This document shows positions 3,464-22,311 of a stretch of 22,366 bases of DNA, one piece after another. Position 1 is the stretch's first letter. Every line of letters begins with the position of its first letter. Source of the DNA: a virus. The stretch lies in IMG/VR virus record IMGVR_UViG_3300022745_000149, positions 1 to 22,366 of that record. The stretch is one strand, 5' to 3'. Both the position numbers and the translations under genes were made by a program. Under the pieces are notes generated by a model. It did no database searches. It had not been told where the DNA came from and was given only the letters and a program-made list of their open reading frames with translations.

Positions 3464-4222
3464 TTACTTGTTTGAATTACACCATCTCGCGACCAAATCT
3501 AAACCGTCTGATCGAAGCGGGTCATTCATTGAAATTGTTTTTAAAATATTGATTGCGCCGTGCGCAATCTCGATGCCCTTTCCTCTCCGTGTTGAAGTTG
3601 TCTTTTCCGTAATTGTTACGAGTTCTTCGATCTCCTTTCCGGTTTCACCGTCTATGTATGTTTTGGTTGGCTTGGTTGGTTTTTCTTCCTCGCCGATTTC
3701 GTGAGAAAGAGTTCTAGATGAATTAATCTTTGACGTATCCATCGCGAACGTCTTTCCATTTCTTGTTACTTCCCTTATCTGCTGATTGTCAGCAGATAGC
3801 TTTCTATATTTTCCTACCATTGTGTTATGCACCCCAACATGATCCGCAATCGCCCGATCCGACATCTTCGCAGAGTTCGGATGCGACAACGCAGCACGAA
3901 CAGCACGTTCCTTGTCCGCGTTCGTTCGGCGAAGGCCAGCTTGGTCGTGGGTCTTATTCGCCCCATAGCTGAACCATTGTGCGGCTTGCAAATCGCCTTG
4001 GTGGATGTTGCAGGCGATAACGTCGCCGCCTGCAAGCTGATGCGCGTTGTAACGATGAAAGCCATCTGCGAGCCAATACCTGTCACCGTCAAAGAAAACA
4101 TCGACAGGAGGAAGCTCGTGCAATTGATCCGCCATCTGCTCAACACGTTCGCTGTCAAGTTCTGACCGTGGCTGAGTTCCGCCGTCCGTGCGTATGTCTG
4201 AAAGTTTTAACTTCTTGCTCAT
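3464..4222 (-). CDS. ParB N-terminal domain protein with helix-turn-helix
   Basis: The 252-aa protein starts MSKKLKLSDIRTDGGTQPRS, typical of ParB/RepB-like proteins in which this strand leads into the fold. The box WLADGFHRYNAHQLAG (about 50-65) is the nucleotide-binding 'DGxHR' motif. RRTNADKERAV (about 98-108) and the helix-turn-helix MSDRAIADHVGVHNTMVGKY (120-139) follow. The Lys/Glu-rich C-terminal part is unassigned. The family is widespread in bacteria and phages, usually without a ParA partner, and is thought to bind DNA. ATG 4222 was chosen because the 12 residues before it, from a TTG at 4258, do not look conserved. The ribosome binding site (GAG) is weak. It is followed 12 nt later by a second ParB-domain gene. 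Confidence 0.85.
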   Translation of the reverse strand: MSKKLKLSDIRTDGGTQPRSELDSERVEQMADQLHELPPVDVFFDGDRYWLADGFHRYNAHQLAGGDVIACNIHQGDLQAAQWFSYGANKTHDQAGLRRTNADKERAVRAALSHPNSAKMSDRAIADHVGVHNTMVGKYRKLSADNQQIREVTRNGKTFAMDTSKINSSRTLSHEIGEEEKPTKPTKTYIDGETGKEIEELVTITEKTTSTRRGKGIEIAHGAINILKTISMNDPLRSDGLDLVARWCNSNK

Positions 4223-4345
4223 CTGTGTCTCGCTATCATTGGAGTAAAAACCAACCAAGCCCGTTAATGAACAGCACCTACAACCTTTGCAACTCCGATA
4301 AACGGACTCGTTATAAAAATAAATCAGACTTTTCTAAGACATCGA

Positions 4346-4555
4346 CTACGAACACGTGCTACAATCAGAACTCGCCGATCCGACAGCCTTGCCGTTCTCG
4401 ACGTTCTTCCGTGGTTCTGATTGAAGCTGCGTTTTAATAGCATCAATGAACGATTCGGGAGTTGTTTCGTAAACCGTCGTGGTCTTACTTTCTCCCGTTT
4501 CTGGGTCGCGGGCTGTTACGTAAACCCGTTTAACTTGTTTCTTGGTTAATGTCAT
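4346..4555 (-). CDS. 69-aa first gene of the early operon, probably leaderless
   Basis: The protein opens MTLTKKQVKRVYVTARDPET, continues as a beta-like basic segment (SKTTTVYETTPESFIDAIK), and ends in a Ser/Cys tail (SSDCSTCS). No family is recognised. No Shine-Dalgarno sequence precedes the ATG. Instead, a promoter-like TTGCAA-16-TATCTT ends 8 nt before it, so the transcript would begin at or next to the start codon. It is the first gene leftward of the divergent control region and so probably heads the early operon. The 123-nt gap before the ParB-like gene contains no clear gene; a weak TATAAC element is visible there. Confidence 0.68.
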   Translation of the reverse strand: MTLTKKQVKRVYVTARDPETGESKTTTVYETTPESFIDAIKTQLQSEPRKNVENGKAVGSASSDCSTCS

Positions 4556-4563
4556 TGATTAAC

Positions 4564-4591
4564 AAGATACAGTCTTGAAAGACTCTTGCAA
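4564..4591 (-). promoter_or_regulatory. Early leftward promoter, nearly leaderless
   Basis: On the minus strand the -35 TTGCAA (4591-4586) is followed by a 16-bp spacer and the -10 TATCTT (4569-4564). Each hexamer matches the sigma70 consensus at 4 of 6 positions. A start 7-9 nt downstream falls at 4557-4555, and 4555 is the A of the ATG of the 69-aa gene, which lacks a Shine-Dalgarno sequence. The tandem operator covers the spacer and the -35. Confidence 0.5.
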
Positions 4592-4593
4592 GA
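4573..4593. promoter_or_regulatory. Tandem palindromic operator, two TCTTGnAAGA sites
   Basis: Two 10-bp inverted repeats, TCTTGAAAGA (4573-4582) and TCTTGCAAGA (4584-4593), differ at one base and lie 11 bp apart, one helical turn, so dimers could bind the same DNA face. The flanks extend each palindrome (AGTCTT-GA-AAGACT and CTCTTGCAAGAG). They lie between the divergent 69-aa gene and the ribbon-helix-helix-like gene, overlapping the leftward promoter. A third, weaker match (TCTTACAAAA) follows at 4598. The likely ligand is the neighbouring regulator. Confidence 0.7.
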
Positions 4594-4642
4594 GAAATCT
4601 TACAAAATATTTCTCCAGTCTTTCGTTGAAAGAGGTAAGTCT

Positions 4643-5038
4643 ATGCTGTTTAATTACTTACAAATGGAAGAAATAAATAGAAACTTTCGGTTAATTAAAC
4701 CAATATCACGATTGCTTGACGAAATGGCGAGCAAATTATTCGGGAAACGTGGGCAATCGTATGTTATAACCGCTGCATTGCTGTTACTTCGCAGCCTGAA
4801 TGATGAAGAAAGGCAAAAGCTGTTAATCAGTGCCATGTCAATAAAAGCACAAAGCCCCGAGCAAGTTGACGACTTGTTGCTCAAGGCCAGGGCTTTTAAT
4901 GGTTATCTTGCTTCGGATAAATCAACGCTCATCGTTGACCCATCCGATAACGGGAATCTTGCCGACAAAGGACTTCCTACGCTCGGCAATCGCGATACCA
5001 GCGGCAAGGGATCGGCTAATAAGGCAACGAGAAGATAG
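4643..5038 (+). CDS. Ribbon-helix-helix-like regulator candidate
   Basis: The 131-aa protein is one of the few rightward genes. Residues about 11-50 fit the ribbon-helix-helix layout: a strand (NFRLIKPI), a first helix (SRLLDEMASKLFG), a turn (KRGQ) and a second helix (SYVITAALLLLRSLNDEE). Arc/MetJ/CopG-type repressors have this pattern and bind short palindromes as dimers, often cooperatively in tandem. The C-terminal half is Gly/Asn/Asp-rich and ends basic (GSANKATRR). ATG 4643 was chosen because AGAGGT lies 7 nt upstream; the frame is open back to a TTG at 4586, but that codon lies in the operator. The tandem palindromes upstream suggest self-regulation and control of the early operon. The fold call rests on pattern only; an unrelated helical protein is possible. 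Confidence 0.7.
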   Translation: MLFNYLQMEEINRNFRLIKPISRLLDEMASKLFGKRGQSYVITAALLLLRSLNDEERQKLLISAMSIKAQSPEQVDDLLLKARAFNGYLASDKSTLIVDPSDNGNLADKGLPTLGNRDTSGKGSANKATRR

Positions 5039-5152
5039 GCGACTGTTTATTAAATACCTATGGTTTTTCAGGTCTATAACGTCGTCATGCTCGCCGCCGT
5101 ACATGCGGATAGAACCGTCAACCATCACAATCTCGATCTGATCTGCAATCAT
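4922..5152 (-). CDS. Possible 76-aa protein, overlapping the regulator tail to tail
   Basis: The frame begins MIADQIEIVMVDGSIRMYGG with GGGAG 5 nt before the ATG and a promoter-like element further upstream. The first 38 residues lie in DNA not otherwise coding and look natural (alternating hydrophobic and acidic residues). The last 38 are antisense to the end of the regulator gene and are Arg/Ser/Ile-rich, less convincing. Either a real convergent gene overlaps by 117 nt, or only a shorter product or regulatory RNA is made. No family is recognised. Confidence 0.4.
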   Translation of the reverse strand: MIADQIEIVMVDGSIRMYGGEHDDVIDLKNHRYLINSRLSSRCLISRSLAAGIAIAERRKSFVGKIPVIGWVNDER

Positions 5153-5254: not shown

Positions 5255-5476
5255 ATGAGCAAAGTAACAACTCAAAAAACTGGAAAGATATGGAAGCTGC
5301 AAATTATGCTGGCCGTGCTTTTAATGCTCGGCTCTGGCGTGATGTGTTTTATTCTTAGCCAAGTACCGAAAACGGAAGCGAATAAGAATCTGCTTGCGGT
5401 TTGTATTCTCGCATTGGCGTTTAGTCTCGTCTGGTATTTATTCGCCAAGTTCTGCGCATGGTGGGCGAATGGATAG
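5255..5476 (+). CDS. Small membrane protein with two helices
   Basis: The 73-aa protein has a basic N-terminus (MSKVTTQKTGKIWK), a first hydrophobic segment (about 16-35, IMLAVLLMLGSGVMCFILS), a short polar loop (PKTEANKN), and a second segment (about 45-66, LLAVCILALAFSLVWYLF), ending in CAWWANG. GGAG lies 5 nt before the ATG. Two closely spaced membrane helices in a small phage protein are compatible with a class II holin, but also with a superinfection-exclusion or other membrane protein. No endolysin or spanin lies beside it, so the lysis role is only a possibility. It is transcribed rightward, opposite to the late operon that ends just beyond it. Confidence 0.78.
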   Translation: MSKVTTQKTGKIWKLQIMLAVLLMLGSGVMCFILSQVPKTEANKNLLAVCILALAFSLVWYLFAKFCAWWANG

Positions 5477-6997: not shown

Positions 6998-7902
6998 TAC
7001 TTAGTTAATTGCAGAGCCGAGAATGGTTTTGGGTCGTAAAGTTCGTAGCGAAGAAATATCGCGTTTTTGGCTGACTCGATATTCATGTAATCGTTATTCG
7101 ATGGGGTCGTGTTATTGGTTGATGCCAGTCCAGGCCCGTACTTGTAAGTGTCGGTGTCGTAGACGTGACCTTTACCATTTAAGCGAACAGGCCCGGCCTT
7201 AGTTCCATCTTTGAGGTAAATCTGCAAAGGCTGGTCGCCGTTCGATGTCGTCTTTTGCCACGCCCGCTCGCCAATGTCGAGTATTCGAGTTCTCCAACCA
7301 TCGCGACGAATTGAGATGCGATAAAGACAACGCACCGCCTTTGAGTTGCGGTCTACATCTTCTTCGGGAATGTAAGCGTCGAGAATACCTTGACCAGGCT
7401 GAATTGTTCCATAGCCCGGTAAGGTAAATGCGTCGGAGTTGACGCAATCGGCGTAATCAATTCCAAGTCCGATGTTGTACGACACCTCATAGCGTCGGTA
7501 TTCGTAGACGAGATCGGTATAACGTCGCTTAACTGGATTTTTGAACGGGTCTAGCGATGAATTGGTAATCGCGTTTCCAAGCCGGTCACGATCTACGTCA
7601 ACATCTGACTTCACCTGAATCATTCTCCATTTTGGCGGCGGGAATGAATTTGCATCGAAGCCAGCCAGCGTTTGCGCCGAATACTTTATTCGTACAACAA
7701 ACGTCAGCGGCCCTTTAGGTGATGAGACGTAAGGGTCTTCTGCAATTAATTGCAGGTCAAGATAGTAAGGAGTTCCCTTGAATATTCCGACCGCAGATAA
7801 TGCCTGATCCGCAGTCGTAACACCCGAAACTAAAAACTCACGATTAGCGAATTGGCCTGTTTGCCATTCCGCTTTTGACCAATCTTCGGTTACGTATGCC
7901 AT
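6997..7902 (-). CDS. Distal tail/baseplate protein candidate
   Basis: The 301-aa protein directly follows the tape measure gene and overlaps it by one base (TAATG). In siphophages this slot encodes distal tail or baseplate hub proteins. The sequence mixes beta segments with charged loops: RREYxVSYN-like RRYEVSYNIGLGIDYAD near the middle, a YRISIRRDGWRTRILDIGER stretch, and a KDGTKAGPVRLNGKG segment near the end. No family is recognised with confidence, so the role is inferred from position. Confidence 0.75.
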   Translation of the reverse strand: MAYVTEDWSKAEWQTGQFANREFLVSGVTTADQALSAVGIFKGTPYYLDLQLIAEDPYVSSPKGPLTFVVRIKYSAQTLAGFDANSFPPPKWRMIQVKSDVDVDRDRLGNAITNSSLDPFKNPVKRRYTDLVYEYRRYEVSYNIGLGIDYADCVNSDAFTLPGYGTIQPGQGILDAYIPEEDVDRNSKAVRCLYRISIRRDGWRTRILDIGERAWQKTTSNGDQPLQIYLKDGTKAGPVRLNGKGHVYDTDTYKYGPGLASTNNTTPSNNDYMNIESAKNAIFLRYELYDPKPFSALQLTK

Positions 7903-10779: not shown

Positions 10780-11274
10780 TTATGGATTAACGTTTGAATA
10801 GGGAGACTTGTAGGGGTTGTTCTTTTCGGTTGCGAAACGAACAGCGATATTTACTTGCACGACAAATCGACCGCTTGAAGGCATGACAAAGTAGCCGGGT
10901 GATTTAATGATTGTTTCCTGCGCCAGACCGCCGCGATTCAGGCTTGATTCTTGATAGGTCAAAGCCTTTTCAACATCGGCCCGAAATATATTCATTGCCT
11001 TGTCAGGCGGTTCGGTTAAATCTTCTGCGGGGTTGATGTAGCAGTCGATGAAGTACGGTTGTTCCCACCAGTCCTGACCTATTGATTCTTCGGGAACGCG
11101 AATGGGACTACCCTGCCGAACTACCGCAAGACTCTGCCCCGCAAGCGGAGCATTACCGCCCTTTTTAATACGCTCGACCGTTACATCGTTCGCGTATCCA
11201 TTGACCTTGCGAATCGTCTTGAGCGTATCAACTATGTCTTGCGTGATTCGTTCGTTTACTGGTAGGAAGTTCAT
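10780..11274 (-). CDS. Tail terminator/completion protein candidate
   Basis: The 164-aa protein begins NERITQDIVDTLKTIRKVNG followed by YANDVTVERIKKGG, a helix-then-strand start that resembles tail terminator-like proteins of siphophages, and has YFIDCYINPAEDL and GRFVVQVNIAVRF strands that would form the central sheet. The overlap with the gpZ-like gene (TAATG) and its place just before the tail tube match lambda gpU, which caps the tail and joins it to the head. The identification rests on pattern and position. Confidence 0.72.
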   Translation of the reverse strand: MNFLPVNERITQDIVDTLKTIRKVNGYANDVTVERIKKGGNAPLAGQSLAVVRQGSPIRVPEESIGQDWWEQPYFIDCYINPAEDLTEPPDKAMNIFRADVEKALTYQESSLNRGGLAQETIIKSPGYFVMPSSGRFVVQVNIAVRFATEKNNPYKSPYSNVNP

Positions 11275-11993
11275 TAATAACCTAAGTAGCCGGTGATTTC
11301 TTCGTATGCGTAGCTGATGTCGCTGCGTGTAACGTCATCGAACGCCATTACTTGTTGAACCATCTGATCGCGAAGTTCAAACATTGCTTCACGTTCAATG
11401 TCTTGTAGTTCGTTTGGAGTCTTGTTGACGATTGATTTAAGAGACGGGCCAAACGCTTCTGAGATTGGCAACCGTCCTGCGCGATGCCTTCCAGATGTCT
11501 TATCACGTTGCCATACGTTTAATTCTGGATCGTTCGGCATCGTCGAAATAAACGCAGCCGCAAGATGTACCGGCGAACCGCCTCGTGTCGGTTGAGCAAA
11601 TACTCCGCGTTCGTCCTCTCGTGCGCCGTAGTCGATTAGCGGTATCGCCTCGCTGCTGATACTGACCATCGAGTAACCATCCCGCTGCGTTGCATAGGTA
11701 GTCGATACCCGCTTTTCGATTTGTTCTTGCGGTAGATTTACCTCTTTTACGAGACGATCAATAACGCGACGTTTAACCCCATCAGCCGCGTCGTTTAGTG
11801 CCTGCACCGTGTACTTCTGCGGCATTTGCGCGAGCTGATCGAGCTGCGCCAATGTCTGCAAATACGCAGGTTGATCAATAGTGATATAGGTAGCGAGGTC
11901 ACGGAATCGCTGTGCGTTGTCCTGCTGATTCTGGTAAACATCTGCGTCCAGAATCGCATAATCGGGATCGTTCCTATCTACGATGGAGTCCAT
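11274..11993 (-). CDS. Minor tail protein Z-like (tail completion)
   Basis: The 239-aa protein resembles the minor tail protein Z family. The first third is helical (QNQQDNAQRFRDLATYI). ALNDAADGVKRRVIDRLVKE (about 64-83) matches the family's N-terminal helices with 'lN..a...r....r.l...', and GRHRAGRLPISEAFGPSL (about 167-184) corresponds to the conserved 'R.g.rLPi...fGPsv' motif. The last part is a helix rich in Glu/Gln. Lambda Z (192 aa) acts late in tail assembly, near the connector end. It overlaps its neighbours by one base on both sides, so the genes are probably co-translated. Confidence 0.83.
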   Translation of the reverse strand: MDSIVDRNDPDYAILDADVYQNQQDNAQRFRDLATYITIDQPAYLQTLAQLDQLAQMPQKYTVQALNDAADGVKRRVIDRLVKEVNLPQEQIEKRVSTTYATQRDGYSMVSISSEAIPLIDYGAREDERGVFAQPTRGGSPVHLAAAFISTMPNDPELNVWQRDKTSGRHRAGRLPISEAFGPSLKSIVNKTPNELQDIEREAMFELRDQMVQQVMAFDDVTRSDISYAYEEITGYLGY

Positions 11994-13246: not shown

Positions 13247-13767
13247 TAGTTTCGTATTACCTTGCAGCCGTGTTCAGATAGTTCTTGAATCAGTTGATTA
13301 ACGATTTCGGTCTCTTTCGCCCATCGCGTTTCGCTTCGGTTGTATCCCGCCTCTATCCCGTCCGCGTCGAGTTTCCCCGCCATTGTCATACCGTAGATGT
13401 TGATCGTTTTCGCACCCATACTCGCTGCGTGAACCATTGCTGCTGTCGCAGTGAAAAGCGAATAGTTTATAGTTGGTGACAGATACGGTAATTCCGCGAT
13501 TACATTTAGCGGTTTCGGCCATTTGAAGCCCTTGCGAAGTAATGACTCTTTGCTGTTCTTGCTGGTGATAAGTTCAGGCGAACCCTGAACCTGCGAAGCC
13601 CAATTGATGATTCCTCCGCCGGGCAAGTCGCTGATCCAGTCGAGTGCAACCCAATGCGTAACAGGTCTTAGAATCGCAGCACGGTTGATCCCGTAGACAA
13701 TCCCGTCAACCTGCGGGGCGTTTGCCAGCGACGGGCCGGGGCAAAGGATGGTTACGGTTTCACGCAA
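13246..13767 (-). CDS. MptE-like/DUF115-type Rossmann protein
   Basis: The 173-aa protein has a nucleotide-binding-like opening VTILCPGPSLANAP with the GPSL motif found in the MptE-like group (6-hydroxymethylpterin diphosphokinase-related, also in Maf flagellin-glycosylation proteins). Next come VYGINRAAILRP, THWVALDW and, later, ATAAMVHAASMGAKTINIYG ('a...A...Ga..I.l.G.D' in the family). The usual acidic residue after the last motif is replaced by MTMAG here. The start is uncertain: TTG 13767 has a weak GAG 6 nt upstream, and TTG 13815 would overlap the methyltransferase by 64 nt. It may handle a sugar or cofactor for a virion or cell-surface modification, but no substrate can be read. Confidence 0.75.
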   Translation of the reverse strand: MRETVTILCPGPSLANAPQVDGIVYGINRAAILRPVTHWVALDWISDLPGGGIINWASQVQGSPELITSKNSKESLLRKGFKWPKPLNVIAELPYLSPTINYSLFTATAAMVHAASMGAKTINIYGMTMAGKLDADGIEAGYNRSETRWAKETEIVNQLIQELSEHGCKVIRN

Positions 13768-14234
13768 AACCAACTCGGTAAATACTGCTCGTCGGTGATA
13801 GTGATATTCAGACAATTCAACGCCGCGAACTCGTCTACCGCCTCTATAGTCGGTAGATAACTCTTGTCATAGTCGTGCCCTGAGAATGTCCCGCCTCGTT
13901 TGAGTTTGGGCCACCATTCACGCATCCATCTTCCTCCGCATTGTCCCGTATGGGCATAGGCGTCAATGTAGATAGCGTCAAAGTATTCGTCGGGAAAACG
14001 AACGACTGCTGATTCAAGTGGTTCGCGGATAATTTCAGATCGTCCAGAGAACACTTGTAATCGATTCGTACAACGCTGAAACTCGCGTTCGTCATGGTGA
14101 TCGCTCCATCGGTCTATCGAATACAACTTTACGACCGAATCATTTTTAAGAATCGTTTCCGAAAACTCACCAGCAGCAACGCCAAGTTCCGCAACGATGC
14201 CGCTAAAAGTGTTTGCTAGATCGTCTCTAGTCAT
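13752..14234 (-). CDS. Class I SAM-dependent methyltransferase
   Basis: The 160-aa protein has the Methyltransferase_24-like signature: motif I AELGVAAGEFSETIL (15-29) binds SAM, YSIDRW (38-43) supplies the ribose-binding acidic residue (D41), DAIYIDAYAHT (86-96) resembles the motif with the catalytic/metal-site acid, and KRGGTFSGHDYD (112-123) is the typical late motif. It lacks the target-recognition features of DNA methylases (no DPPY/NPPY or PC motif), so it more likely acts on a sugar, small molecule or protein. Its ATG overlaps the end of the HNH gene by 8 nt and there is no clear ribosome binding site. It overlaps the MptE-like gene, suggesting a joint pathway. Confidence 0.82.
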   Translation of the reverse strand: MTRDDLANTFSGIVAELGVAAGEFSETILKNDSVVKLYSIDRWSDHHDEREFQRCTNRLQVFSGRSEIIREPLESAVVRFPDEYFDAIYIDAYAHTGQCGGRWMREWWPKLKRGGTFSGHDYDKSYLPTIEAVDEFAALNCLNITITDEQYLPSWFCVKP

Positions 14235-16551: not shown

Positions 16552-16989
16552 TTAGATCGAACGCTTGTAGGTTGCTTCGAAGTAGACCAGGCATTTATTG
16601 GTGCGGGTCGAATCGTAGCGAACCAGCTTACCGATTGCCGAATTGCTGGTAGATGCGAGCGTGAACGTGTCGTCATCGCTGGCATAGACGGTGTCGCCTA
16701 CGTCATTGATGTTGTCGCCGTTGGTAACGGTAAGCCACACGTAACCGCTTGAACGAACCTTGATGTTCTTCGCTGCGGCTGCGCCTGCGCTGTTATCGCA
16801 ATTCTCGATAGCGAATCCAAGGAAGTTGTCGCCAGCAGCAAGCGGGCGGCCAGTTCCGGTAGAAGATGATTCACCAACAGCTGCGCCGAGATAAATAATA
16901 TCTGATGCAATTGCTGGGATTTCGTTATAATCAGGGCTTCCGCCGTTGTTTTCAAACGCACGGGCCTTATCGACTGCTAAAGTTGCCAT
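16552..16989 (-). CDS. Capsid cement/decoration protein (DUF2190-like)
   Basis: The 145-aa protein matches the capsid cement pattern. A variable N-terminal part is followed by IIYLGAAVGESS, then FLGFAIENCDNSAGAAAAKN (with 'GiA...a..G..v.v...G'), IKVRSSGYVWLTVTNGDNIN, VGDTVYASDDDTFTLAS and IGKLVRYDST. These fit small beta-rich proteins that bind the outside of the capsid and stabilise it against DNA pressure, like lambda gpD in function. It lies between protease/scaffold and major capsid genes, and AGGAG lies 9 nt before the ATG. Confidence 0.86.
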   Translation of the reverse strand: MATLAVDKARAFENNGGSPDYNEIPAIASDIIYLGAAVGESSSTGTGRPLAAGDNFLGFAIENCDNSAGAAAAKNIKVRSSGYVWLTVTNGDNINDVGDTVYASDDDTFTLASTSNSAIGKLVRYDSTRTNKCLVYFEATYKRSI

Positions 16990-19874: not shown

Positions 19875-21836
19875 TTACCAGCGTCCTTGTTTTCGTGATG
19901 CGAAATCGCTAACGGGAATTGCGTTATCTTCGATTGCCTGAATTGGTTTATTCTGGTCTTGGTTCTCGTCTTGATAGACTTGACCGGCGCACGCAGCCAA
20001 TGCCGCAGCGTCAAGACCGTGATTGTTTCGATTGATTGCAACCCATCGCGTTACCAACCCCTTACCCGCAACAAACTCTTCTTCCTTCTTTTCAGCGACG
20101 AAGTGCTTGCATATCCATAAATGCTCATGCGGCGGGGATTGGTATAAAGTCAATGCGCCGGATTCGGTTGTCTTGACGTTTAGCCTTGAATGAATCCAGC
20201 TCTTCCAGTGATCCGAGTTGACTTCGATAACCGGCTTGCGGCATGTCGGCATCGTCACAAGCATATAACCGTCTTTAACTGCCTTGACGATTGTTCCGGT
20301 GTCTCGCTTCTCGCCAGCCAAACCACCAAACCGACGCACGCCCAAACCGAATGATGGGAAGCAATTCTCTGACTCTTCGCAGAACTTTGTTACCACGCCT
20401 GGCAACCATCCGCGATCAAAGAACGATAAAGAACTCGTCATCGTTCCGTTACTTGTTTTCCACCCTTGCTTTAGAACCGTGTCGCGAAAGTCACGCATCG
20501 CGAGCAACAATGCTTTTTCTTCCTCGATCTCGTCACTTGCTACTTCCTGACGACCATAATCGATGATGTGCGGTGTAACACCATTGCGCCACGCAAACGC
20601 AACCCAATGGCATAAACGCTTTCCTTGATCCATTCCGACCGTGATGAACGTCGCATCGTCTGGAACAACGCCACGACCATAGCTAATAGTTCTGCGTGCA
20701 ATCGAGCTTGAATCCTGCGTTGTCAGTGTTGTTGCTTCCGACGAGTAAGGCATCGCCCATACGTATTGCAACATTTGACGTTCGGCTAAGTCCGTGTCAG
20801 CGGCCCGCGAAGCCTTCCATTCGTCAACGCCTACGACCGATTGATCTTCGAGCAGGTTGTTTACGAATGAGACACGAAGCCCGAATGATTTAGTGTCTGG
20901 CACTGGCCCATGCACAATCCCGCTTCTGTCAATCGTCTGCCCTGCGTGAACGATACGACAATCTCGATTCGCGTTCTTGCGATCATCTTCTGACCAGGCC
21001 GTTCCGCATGACGGACAAATCAGATGGGCTTCTCTTGCGGCTTCGTTTTCGGTGTCTGCTGTCTGCCAGCCCGCGAAATGGTTTCGCTCTGGCAAAACAT
21101 ATTCGCCGCAGTGCTGGCACTTGATATATATTCTGCTATTCGTACCGCCCGTCACTTCTCGCCAGATGCGACCCGATTCTGTCGAAGCCGTACACTCTCG
21201 ATAGATTCGCTTCATTGAACCATAAGCACGACAGCAACCTTCGATCTGCGTCAGCTTATCAGTCTCATCCGACTTGCCGCCCGATTCATCCATTCCATCG
21301 GTTTCTGTTTCGACAATGACACGGGCCGTAAATCCTGCGCGGCTTTTATCCGATCCGCCGCCCGTCATAAATCGAAGAACAGCACCGTTTGCAAATTGAA
21401 TCGTTACAAACTCACCGCCACGACTTCCCGATCCTACCTTCGGTATCATGTCCGCATAACGCGACGACTTAATTACCGGCAACAGATCGCGATTCCATTT
21501 GTCCATCGCCATATCAGTTGTCGGAACTGCATAGATAACAGTCTCGCGCAACTCAAACAGGTGATAGCAAACCGGAATTGCCGAACCAATCAGCGTCTTA
21601 CCGCCCTGACGCATCGCAGTTAATGAAATCGATGTCCAGTTACCTGAATCGATCTGGTCTAAATAAAGACCGTTCCACGGATTGCGATCGCAAGAAAACC
21701 GTCTGCCTTCGTGCGGGCCTGTCGGGAGAATGATCTCCTGTTCGGCAAACTCCCGCATCGTGCGCAACCTTGGAACGCGAATCGCTTCACAAAGGTTATA
21801 CGCATAGTCATACTCGGCCCGGTTCACTATCTTCAA
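19875..21836 (-). CDS. Large terminase subunit, lambda GpA family
   Basis: The 653-aa protein packages DNA into proheads. The N-terminal ATPase has the adenine-binding/Walker A-like RQGGKT (76-81), and the probable Walker B is ARVIVETETDG (171-181). Two CxxC pairs (C240/C243, C274/C277) form the zinc site typical of the GpA family. The nuclease domain has GMDQGKR (D403), SFFDRGW (D474) and a final acidic motif NNHGLDAAALAA. The length is close to lambda gpA (641). The start is not ATG: TTG 21836 or GTG 21827 are possible, and both overlap the end of the small subunit gene, implying coupled translation. Confidence 0.96.
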   Translation of the reverse strand: MKIVNRAEYDYAYNLCEAIRVPRLRTMREFAEQEIILPTGPHEGRRFSCDRNPWNGLYLDQIDSGNWTSISLTAMRQGGKTLIGSAIPVCYHLFELRETVIYAVPTTDMAMDKWNRDLLPVIKSSRYADMIPKVGSGSRGGEFVTIQFANGAVLRFMTGGGSDKSRAGFTARVIVETETDGMDESGGKSDETDKLTQIEGCCRAYGSMKRIYRECTASTESGRIWREVTGGTNSRIYIKCQHCGEYVLPERNHFAGWQTADTENEAAREAHLICPSCGTAWSEDDRKNANRDCRIVHAGQTIDRSGIVHGPVPDTKSFGLRVSFVNNLLEDQSVVGVDEWKASRAADTDLAERQMLQYVWAMPYSSEATTLTTQDSSSIARRTISYGRGVVPDDATFITVGMDQGKRLCHWVAFAWRNGVTPHIIDYGRQEVASDEIEEEKALLLAMRDFRDTVLKQGWKTSNGTMTSSLSFFDRGWLPGVVTKFCEESENCFPSFGLGVRRFGGLAGEKRDTGTIVKAVKDGYMLVTMPTCRKPVIEVNSDHWKSWIHSRLNVKTTESGALTLYQSPPHEHLWICKHFVAEKKEEEFVAGKGLVTRWVAINRNNHGLDAAALAACAGQVYQDENQDQNKPIQAIEDNAIPVSDFASRKQGRW

Positions 21837-22311
21837 CCATTCGCTTTAGTTGGGACTGAACATCTGTTACAGCCTCATTGATAATTTGCGCCGGGTCATT
21901 TCCATAACGCTTTTGAACAATCTCGACCGCACGACGAATCGCCCCGAACAATTTCACATGAATCGGCTCAATCTCAGATCGTGCGACCAGCTCGCCTTTT
22001 GCCTTCTTAAAATCAAGCTCGGCGTGATTTGCTTTCCATTCTCGTAATCGTTCAAGATTCGGTGAATCGCTTCCCGCATAGAGCATCGCGTCGTCACCAT
22101 CCTGGGGTTTGGCAACTTCGGCAACCTTTTGTTTGATGCGATATTCGACAACAGCAGGAGCGTAAACCCTAAGCGATGCGTGACCGCTTTTGCCGCTAAA
22201 AGATTCTGGGCTAAGGTTTGGCCTTATCGCGTTATCAAAATGCGCTGCGCTTATTCCTATGAGCTTGGCTGCGTCTTTACGAGTCAACCACAATGCGTCG
22301 TCTGCTGCCAT
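21808..22311 (-). CDS. Small terminase subunit, Nu1-like
   Basis: The 167-aa protein has an N-terminal winged-helix-type start LWLTRKDAAKLIGISAAHFD (8-27), as in lambda Nu1, where it binds the cos region. A variable basic linker follows, then a helical region (LERLREWKANHAELDFKKAK, about 85-104) typical of the small terminase 'r...a......k...G.lv......' segment (GELVARSEI follows). The C-terminal part contacts the large subunit. No Shine-Dalgarno sequence precedes ATG 22311. The 55 bases to the window edge hold only a TATAAG element; a late promoter may lie beyond the edge. Confidence 0.9.
   Translation of the reverse strand: MAADDALWLTRKDAAKLIGISAAHFDNAIRPNLSPESFSGKSGHASLRVYAPAVVEYRIKQKVAEVAKPQDGDDAMLYAGSDSPNLERLREWKANHAELDFKKAKGELVARSEIEPIHVKLFGAIRRAVEIVQKRYGNDPAQIINEAVTDVQSQLKRMVEDSEPGRV

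Follow-up and report, generated by a model that had tools for sequence, protein, structure and literature searches.

Introduction

In the lambdoid phages (cI-OR-cro) and at immB of the telomere phages N15 and PY54, divergent regulator genes surround a short promoter region that bears the operators, sites of 16–18 bp read by the helix-turn-helix proteins CI and Cro, and related phages differ in operator specificity. In immI of phage P22 (Arc/Mnt), dimers of Arc, a small beta-sheet repressor, bind a pair of subsites that are separated by roughly one helical turn and lie between the -35 and the -10 of Pant. In the toxin–antitoxin operon relBE, the operator relO comprises two adjacent 12-bp palindromic half-sites of about one helical turn each, to which dimers of the ribbon-helix-helix protein RelB bind cooperatively, repressing the promoter (PMC2812701); the same work gives a G-X-S/T/N turn for ribbon-helix-helix proteins. 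YefM, which is not a ribbon-helix-helix protein, binds two short tandem palindromes spaced 12 bp centre-to-centre over a promoter (PMC4803016). Leaderless mRNAs in phage switches have a precedent in cI and cro of PY54 (PMC4488713).

Here, we describe a candidate divergent control region in an uncultivated phage, IMG/VR record IMGVR_UViG_3300022745_000149. The whole record, a compact 22-kb genome of 22,366 nucleotides, was analysed and is referred to below as the window.

Results

Genome layout and completeness

Coding sequence in the 22.4-kb genome amounts to 20,639 bp on the minus strand and 618 bp on the plus strand. Plus-strand genes are limited to 4643–5038 and 5255–5476, so that the palindrome region described below is the sole divergent junction of the phage; a terminator-like hairpin (5514–5488) marks the end of the minus-strand block. 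Packaging, head, and tail genes encode a lambda-like terminase, a portal, a ClpP-type protease, a Mu gpT-like head protein, and tail proteins, and further products include an SSB, an exonuclease VIII-like protein, and two ParB-like proteins. No tyrosine integrase and no serine recombinase or resolvase was found in this genome or in that of its relative, with positive controls detected, nor was ParA or another lysogeny gene detected. At the DNA level, the annotated phage collection contained no match to this phage group.

A single relative was found, IMGVR_UViG_3300022745_000154 (G001), which is 21.7 kb long and collinear over its length. The two records share an identical 127-base end (window 1–127/22366; G001 21529–21655/1), and joining the record ends closes the terminal ORF in frame within a few codons in both phages (ending ...LRSVLTKGGKTHKLL and ...LRSVLTKGGLRQI, each followed by a stop). 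The common ends and the ORF closure suggest circular assemblies cut at a 127-mer, in which case the two records would be complete circular genomes and probably derive from one metagenome. Given the 127-bp identical end, a boundary in the assembly graph was judged a likelier cause of the contig termini than physical cos ends.

Tandem palindromes over a predicted leftward promoter

Two operator candidates lie 11 bp apart, measured start-to-start. O1, TCTTGAAAGA (4573–4582), is an imperfect palindrome that extends to AGTCTTGAAAGACT (4571–4584), with 6-bp arms around a GA centre; O2, TCTTGCAAGA (4584–4593), is a perfect palindrome that extends to the 12-bp CTCTTGCAAGAG (4583–4594), with 12/12 bases paired. 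When the 22-kb window was scanned for two palindromes with the same 5-mer half-site 10–12 bp apart, this pair was the sole match, and random genomes with the dinucleotide make-up of the window gave an expectation of 0.05 pairs per 22 kb. The probability of finding such a pair in 87 bp of local composition was P = 4e-4; the pair is far beyond chance. The exact tandem pair was matched four times in other viral contigs, each time within coding or repetitive sequence, and these matches were judged to be chance.

The initial annotation had placed two palindromes TCTTGnAAGA, 11 bp apart, at 4573–4593, over the -35 and spacer of a leftward promoter. These coordinates were exact, with the whole -35 contained in O2 and O1 lying within the spacer. 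The promoter candidate, TTGCAA-16-TATCTT (4564–4591, minus strand), consists of TTGCAA at 4591–4586 and TATCTT at 4569–4564 and matches 8 of the 12 consensus bases. Its sigma70-type score was the best on the minus strand of the region (8.7, against a 95th percentile of 7.6 for random sequences of 150 bp), and it was absent from the results of a stricter 9/12 promoter scan. Nearly every gene of the phage lies downstream of this candidate.

Transcription from this promoter is predicted to start at 4557–4555. An in-frame TAA stands two codons before ATG 4555, which leaves no ATG, GTG, or TTG start upstream of 4555. It had been proposed that the transcript begins at the A of ATG 4555, in front of which no Shine-Dalgarno sequence was seen; the absence of the latter was confirmed (duplex +0.5 kcal/mol), and the proposed start is possible, although not to the exact base. 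Other genes of the window without a Shine-Dalgarno sequence are found at 1994–2215, 11274–11993, 13752–14234, and 21808–22311. In the relative, the counterpart of the small gene beginning at 4555 has a consensus promoter, a leader of 26–33 nt, and the Shine-Dalgarno sequence AAGGA. Judging from one predicted promoter with an 8/12 match, in an arrangement not conserved in the relative, the leftward transcript is possibly leaderless.

Further operator-like sequences occur towards the divergent gene. A weak third copy, TCTTACAAAA (4598–4607; 2 mismatches, 1 on the other strand), is speculative. An inverted repeat, TCTTTC-GTT-GAAAGA (TCTTTCgttGAAAGA, 4619–4633), covers the -35 of the best-scoring promoter-like sequence in the rightward direction and includes CGTTGAAAGA (4624–4633), which has two mismatches with respect to the operator. 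Because the background of 2-mismatch operator matches is 2.7 per kb, the copies at 4598–4607 and 4624–4633 are suggestive only. The inverted repeat at 4619–4633 might, speculatively, serve as an operator for the divergent gene.

The leftward genes

The first leftward ORF (P0002; 4346–4555, minus strand) encodes 69 residues. Its C-terminal ~23 residues are common to a 67-aa ORF of the relative, P0004 (EPRKxxENxKAxxSASSDCSTCS), and its N-terminal part is unrelated. The amino-acid differences in the common part all come from replacement changes, and the coding status of P0002 is therefore only moderately supported. By eye, its N-terminus reads as hairpin-helix, and no DNA-binding family was matched in Pfam or PHROGs searches; the N-terminus of P0004 is DNA-binding-like, with a weak TacA1-like match (E 0.07–0.14) and a match to phrog_5333 (E 5e-4).

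The next gene of the leftward operon (3464–4222, minus strand) encodes a ParB-N/StrR-like DNA-binding protein, the N-terminal region of which is nearly identical in the relative. As this region is kept although the palindromes differ, the protein is unlikely to read them; it may be a second transcription regulator. The nearest matches to this ParB N-domain protein are plasmid-encoded, from Acaryochloris, Gloeocapsopsis, and Rhodovastum, and some of them are annotated as StrR-like regulators. No ParA was found near the gene, and a search of genome contigs with the ParB-like protein returned no relatives.

The divergent 131-aa gene

The divergent gene, P0001 (4643–5038, plus strand), encodes a probable repressor of 131 aa. 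ATG 4643 is preceded by the Shine-Dalgarno sequence GAGGT (-7.1 kcal/mol), and an alternative ATG at 4664 would give a protein of 124 aa. The best plus-strand promoter match, TTGAAA-17-TTTAAT (4626–4654), spans the annotated start of P0001, has its -35 inside the 4619–4633 repeat, and, if used, would begin P0001 at ATG 4664; GAGGT before ATG 4643 favours 4643 as the start and a transcript start further upstream. No good rightward promoter overlaps O1/O2, the best one overlapping the separate inverted repeat, and the earlier suggestion that the protein represses its own gene was not supported. A minus-strand gene at 4922–5152 overlaps P0001 convergently, and in the relative L002 7036–7251 overlaps 7153–7572 in the same way, each overlap being about 100 bases long. 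The small antisense protein (EIVMVDG...YGG) is homologous between the phages, and the overlapped regulators are not.

P0001 had also been described as having a ribbon-helix-helix-like N-terminus. A layout of strand (about 15–19, FRLIK), helix (21–33), turn (G37-Q-S39), and helix (38–52) can be drawn by eye, in which the turn fits the G-X-S turn given for ribbon-helix-helix proteins (PMC2812701). Pfam, PHROGs, and PDB sequence searches with P0001 found no ribbon-helix-helix family, no profile, PDB, or structural result pointed to a DNA-binding fold, and PF01402 and PF03869 (Arc family) matched nothing in either phage genome. Against a home-made ribbon-helix-helix profile built from eight sequences, P0001 scored no better than its own shuffles, and no candidate could be told from shuffles; hhalign against the same profile gave P = 0.62 for P0001, which is not significant, 0.012 for P0003 (the divergent protein of the relative), and 0.018 for P0004. 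The structure prediction proposed in the initial annotation did not help, single-sequence AlphaFold giving an unusable all-helical model of P0001 (pLDDT 50), and the P0003 model was likewise too poor for a fold search. The claimed N-terminus is thus plausible as a strand-helix-(G-X-S)-helix by eye, but family, PDB, and profile searches did not match it. Because YefM reads tandem palindromes with another fold, the DNA layout is no proof of a ribbon-helix-helix either; such a fold is a tentative assignment for P0001. Relatives of P0001 were absent from viral contigs, genome contigs, annotated phages, and plasmids, and in viral contigs neither the 69-aa protein nor the 139-aa protein of the relative had relatives beyond the single sibling.

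Joint replacement of the divergent gene and the palindromes

In the relative, the equivalent locus (L002 7153–7877) contains a divergent 139-aa gene, P0003, and the small 67-aa gene P0004. Similarity between P0001 and P0003 was undetectable. A search for TCTTGnAAGA in related phages had been suggested; in the sole relative, the motif is absent from the 12.6 kb checked, even with one mismatch. The palindrome found in its place is GCTAGC, of which the complete genome of the relative has three copies (16559, 16607, and 16648, corresponding to L002 7553, 7601, and 7642), all within 95 bp (G001 16559–16653, L002 7553–7647). One copy falls where the divergent gene begins, another precedes the -35 of TTGACA-16-TATCAT, and the third immediately follows its -10. 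A shuffled-genome test of clustered palindromes was inflated by self-overlapping palindromes, and a non-overlapping test was used in its place, giving P = 0.0005 for a 6-bp palindrome to be present three times within 123 bp. Common to both phages is thus a layout of palindromes over a leftward promoter and a divergent gene with a Shine-Dalgarno sequence.

DNA identity between the phages rises from ~30–47% to 94% exactly at window position 4423 (L002 7800). Just downstream of this breakpoint (4423/4424), a block of 119 bp (4261–4379; L002 7844–7962) is identical in the two genomes, and neighbouring DNA is about 88% identical. Most of the block is non-coding sequence that separates the small ORF from the ParB/StrR-like gene; RNA structure was not indicated (z -1.3 and -0.3), and Rfam gave no match. 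It is possibly an origin, a protein-binding site, or the result of recent recombination. An inverted repeat, GCTACAATCAGAAC/GTTCTGATTGAAGC, is located at 4358–4371 and 4414–4427, its outer arm exactly at the homology breakpoint.

In this one pair of phages, regulator and operator appear to have changed together. Replacement of both the divergent gene and the palindromes at the same locus points to an exchangeable repressor/operator cassette of the immunity type. The comparison with the relative considerably strengthens the initial interpretation of the locus, which is partly supported.

Discussion

Our preferred reading, to which we give a little better than an even chance, is that the locus is an exchangeable repressor/operator cassette and the main divergent control region of the phage, with the 131-aa protein as repressor. 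P0001 would most likely occupy O1 and O2 with neighbouring dimers spaced by one helical turn; as DNA layout alone, the 11-bp spacing fits such binding to short tandem palindromes. Bound protein would cover the -35 and spacer and switch off the leftward operon, that is, the small ORF, two ParB/StrR-like proteins, the exonuclease, an unassigned 129-aa protein, and the SSB, from which transcription possibly reads on past the joined genome ends into the genes for packaging and structure. In the sibling, another repressor would act on another palindrome at the same site, such that neither phage would recognize the operator of the other (heteroimmunity). Whereas the palindromes, their overlap with the predicted promoter, the one-directional genome, and the joint replacement in the sibling are observed, the roles of P0001 as palindrome binder and repressor are inferred.

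Which protein reads the palindromes is the point on which the main rival differs. Along with the palindromes, the small leftward protein (P0002, 69 aa; P0004, 67 aa) had its N-terminal half exchanged, and that of P0004 is weakly antitoxin- or ribbon-helix-helix-like, including the TacA1-like and phrog_5333 matches; the small protein could therefore control its own promoter in the manner of Cro or an antitoxin, the divergent gene doing another job or forming the second half of a two-regulator switch. We consider this unlikely, as the N-terminus of P0002 itself matches no DNA-binding family and its coding status has only moderate support. In a two-protein immunity switch of very small phages, which we hold to be quite unlikely, the repressor, the tandem operator, and a DNA-binding, Cro-like N-terminus would be swapped as one block, making co-resident siblings heteroimmune. 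Recombination at the conserved 119-bp site would then split the small gene, with the C-terminal tail SASSDCSTCS common to all types and the small Cro-like protein expressed from a nearly leaderless message. That the palindromes are a host-regulator site or structural signal rather than the target of a phage protein would accord with P0001 being an orphan; it is very unlikely, since, if the two phages have a common host (the contig ends suggest one metagenome), a host site should be kept, and it was instead replaced with the neighbouring genes.

What the region is for is a separate matter. It had been called the decision switch of the phage, of which the divergent control region is upheld by the relative, whereas, as no integrase or serine recombinase was detected in either genome, the region may only time early genes, a role that fits as well as a lysogenic decision. 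In a strictly lytic phage, the divergent gene would lower early transcription after infection, with neither lysogeny nor immunity, and the compact 22-kb genome and the absence of detected lysogeny genes (integrase, serine recombinase, ParA, or others) suit such a timing switch. Extrachromosomal prophages do not require an integrase, however, and immunity regions typically show just such a full exchange of regulator and operator between siblings, with a sharp breakpoint; we regard the timing switch as a possible but somewhat unlikely explanation.

On the preferred reading of a repressor/operator cassette, this uncultivated phage group has a compact control region that lends itself to testing, and its two collinear siblings differ in the regulator/operator pair that they carry there. 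Should the 131-aa protein prove to be the repressor, it would be an orphan whose operator can be read from the sequence, and even phages of ~22 kb would swap immunity specificities as cassettes.

Among the known systems, relO resembles O1/O2 in its adjacent half-sites of about one helical turn each, but relBE is a toxin–antitoxin operon, whereas here a divergent candidate repressor stands without a visible toxin partner. The YefM-YoeB operator also has two short palindromes over a promoter, read by a fold unlike the layout proposed for P0001. Compared with immI of P22, the gene order and associated genes differ, and P0001 and P0003 have no Arc-family (PF03869) match. The lambdoid, N15, and PY54 regions differ in their lysogeny genes, none of which was detected in this phage, and in their helix-turn-helix proteins and longer operators, in place of which the present locus has tandem palindromes of 10–12 bp and no detected helix-turn-helix; like them, it sets divergent candidate regulators around a short promoter region with putative operators, and, as among those phages, operator specificity would differ within the sibling pair.
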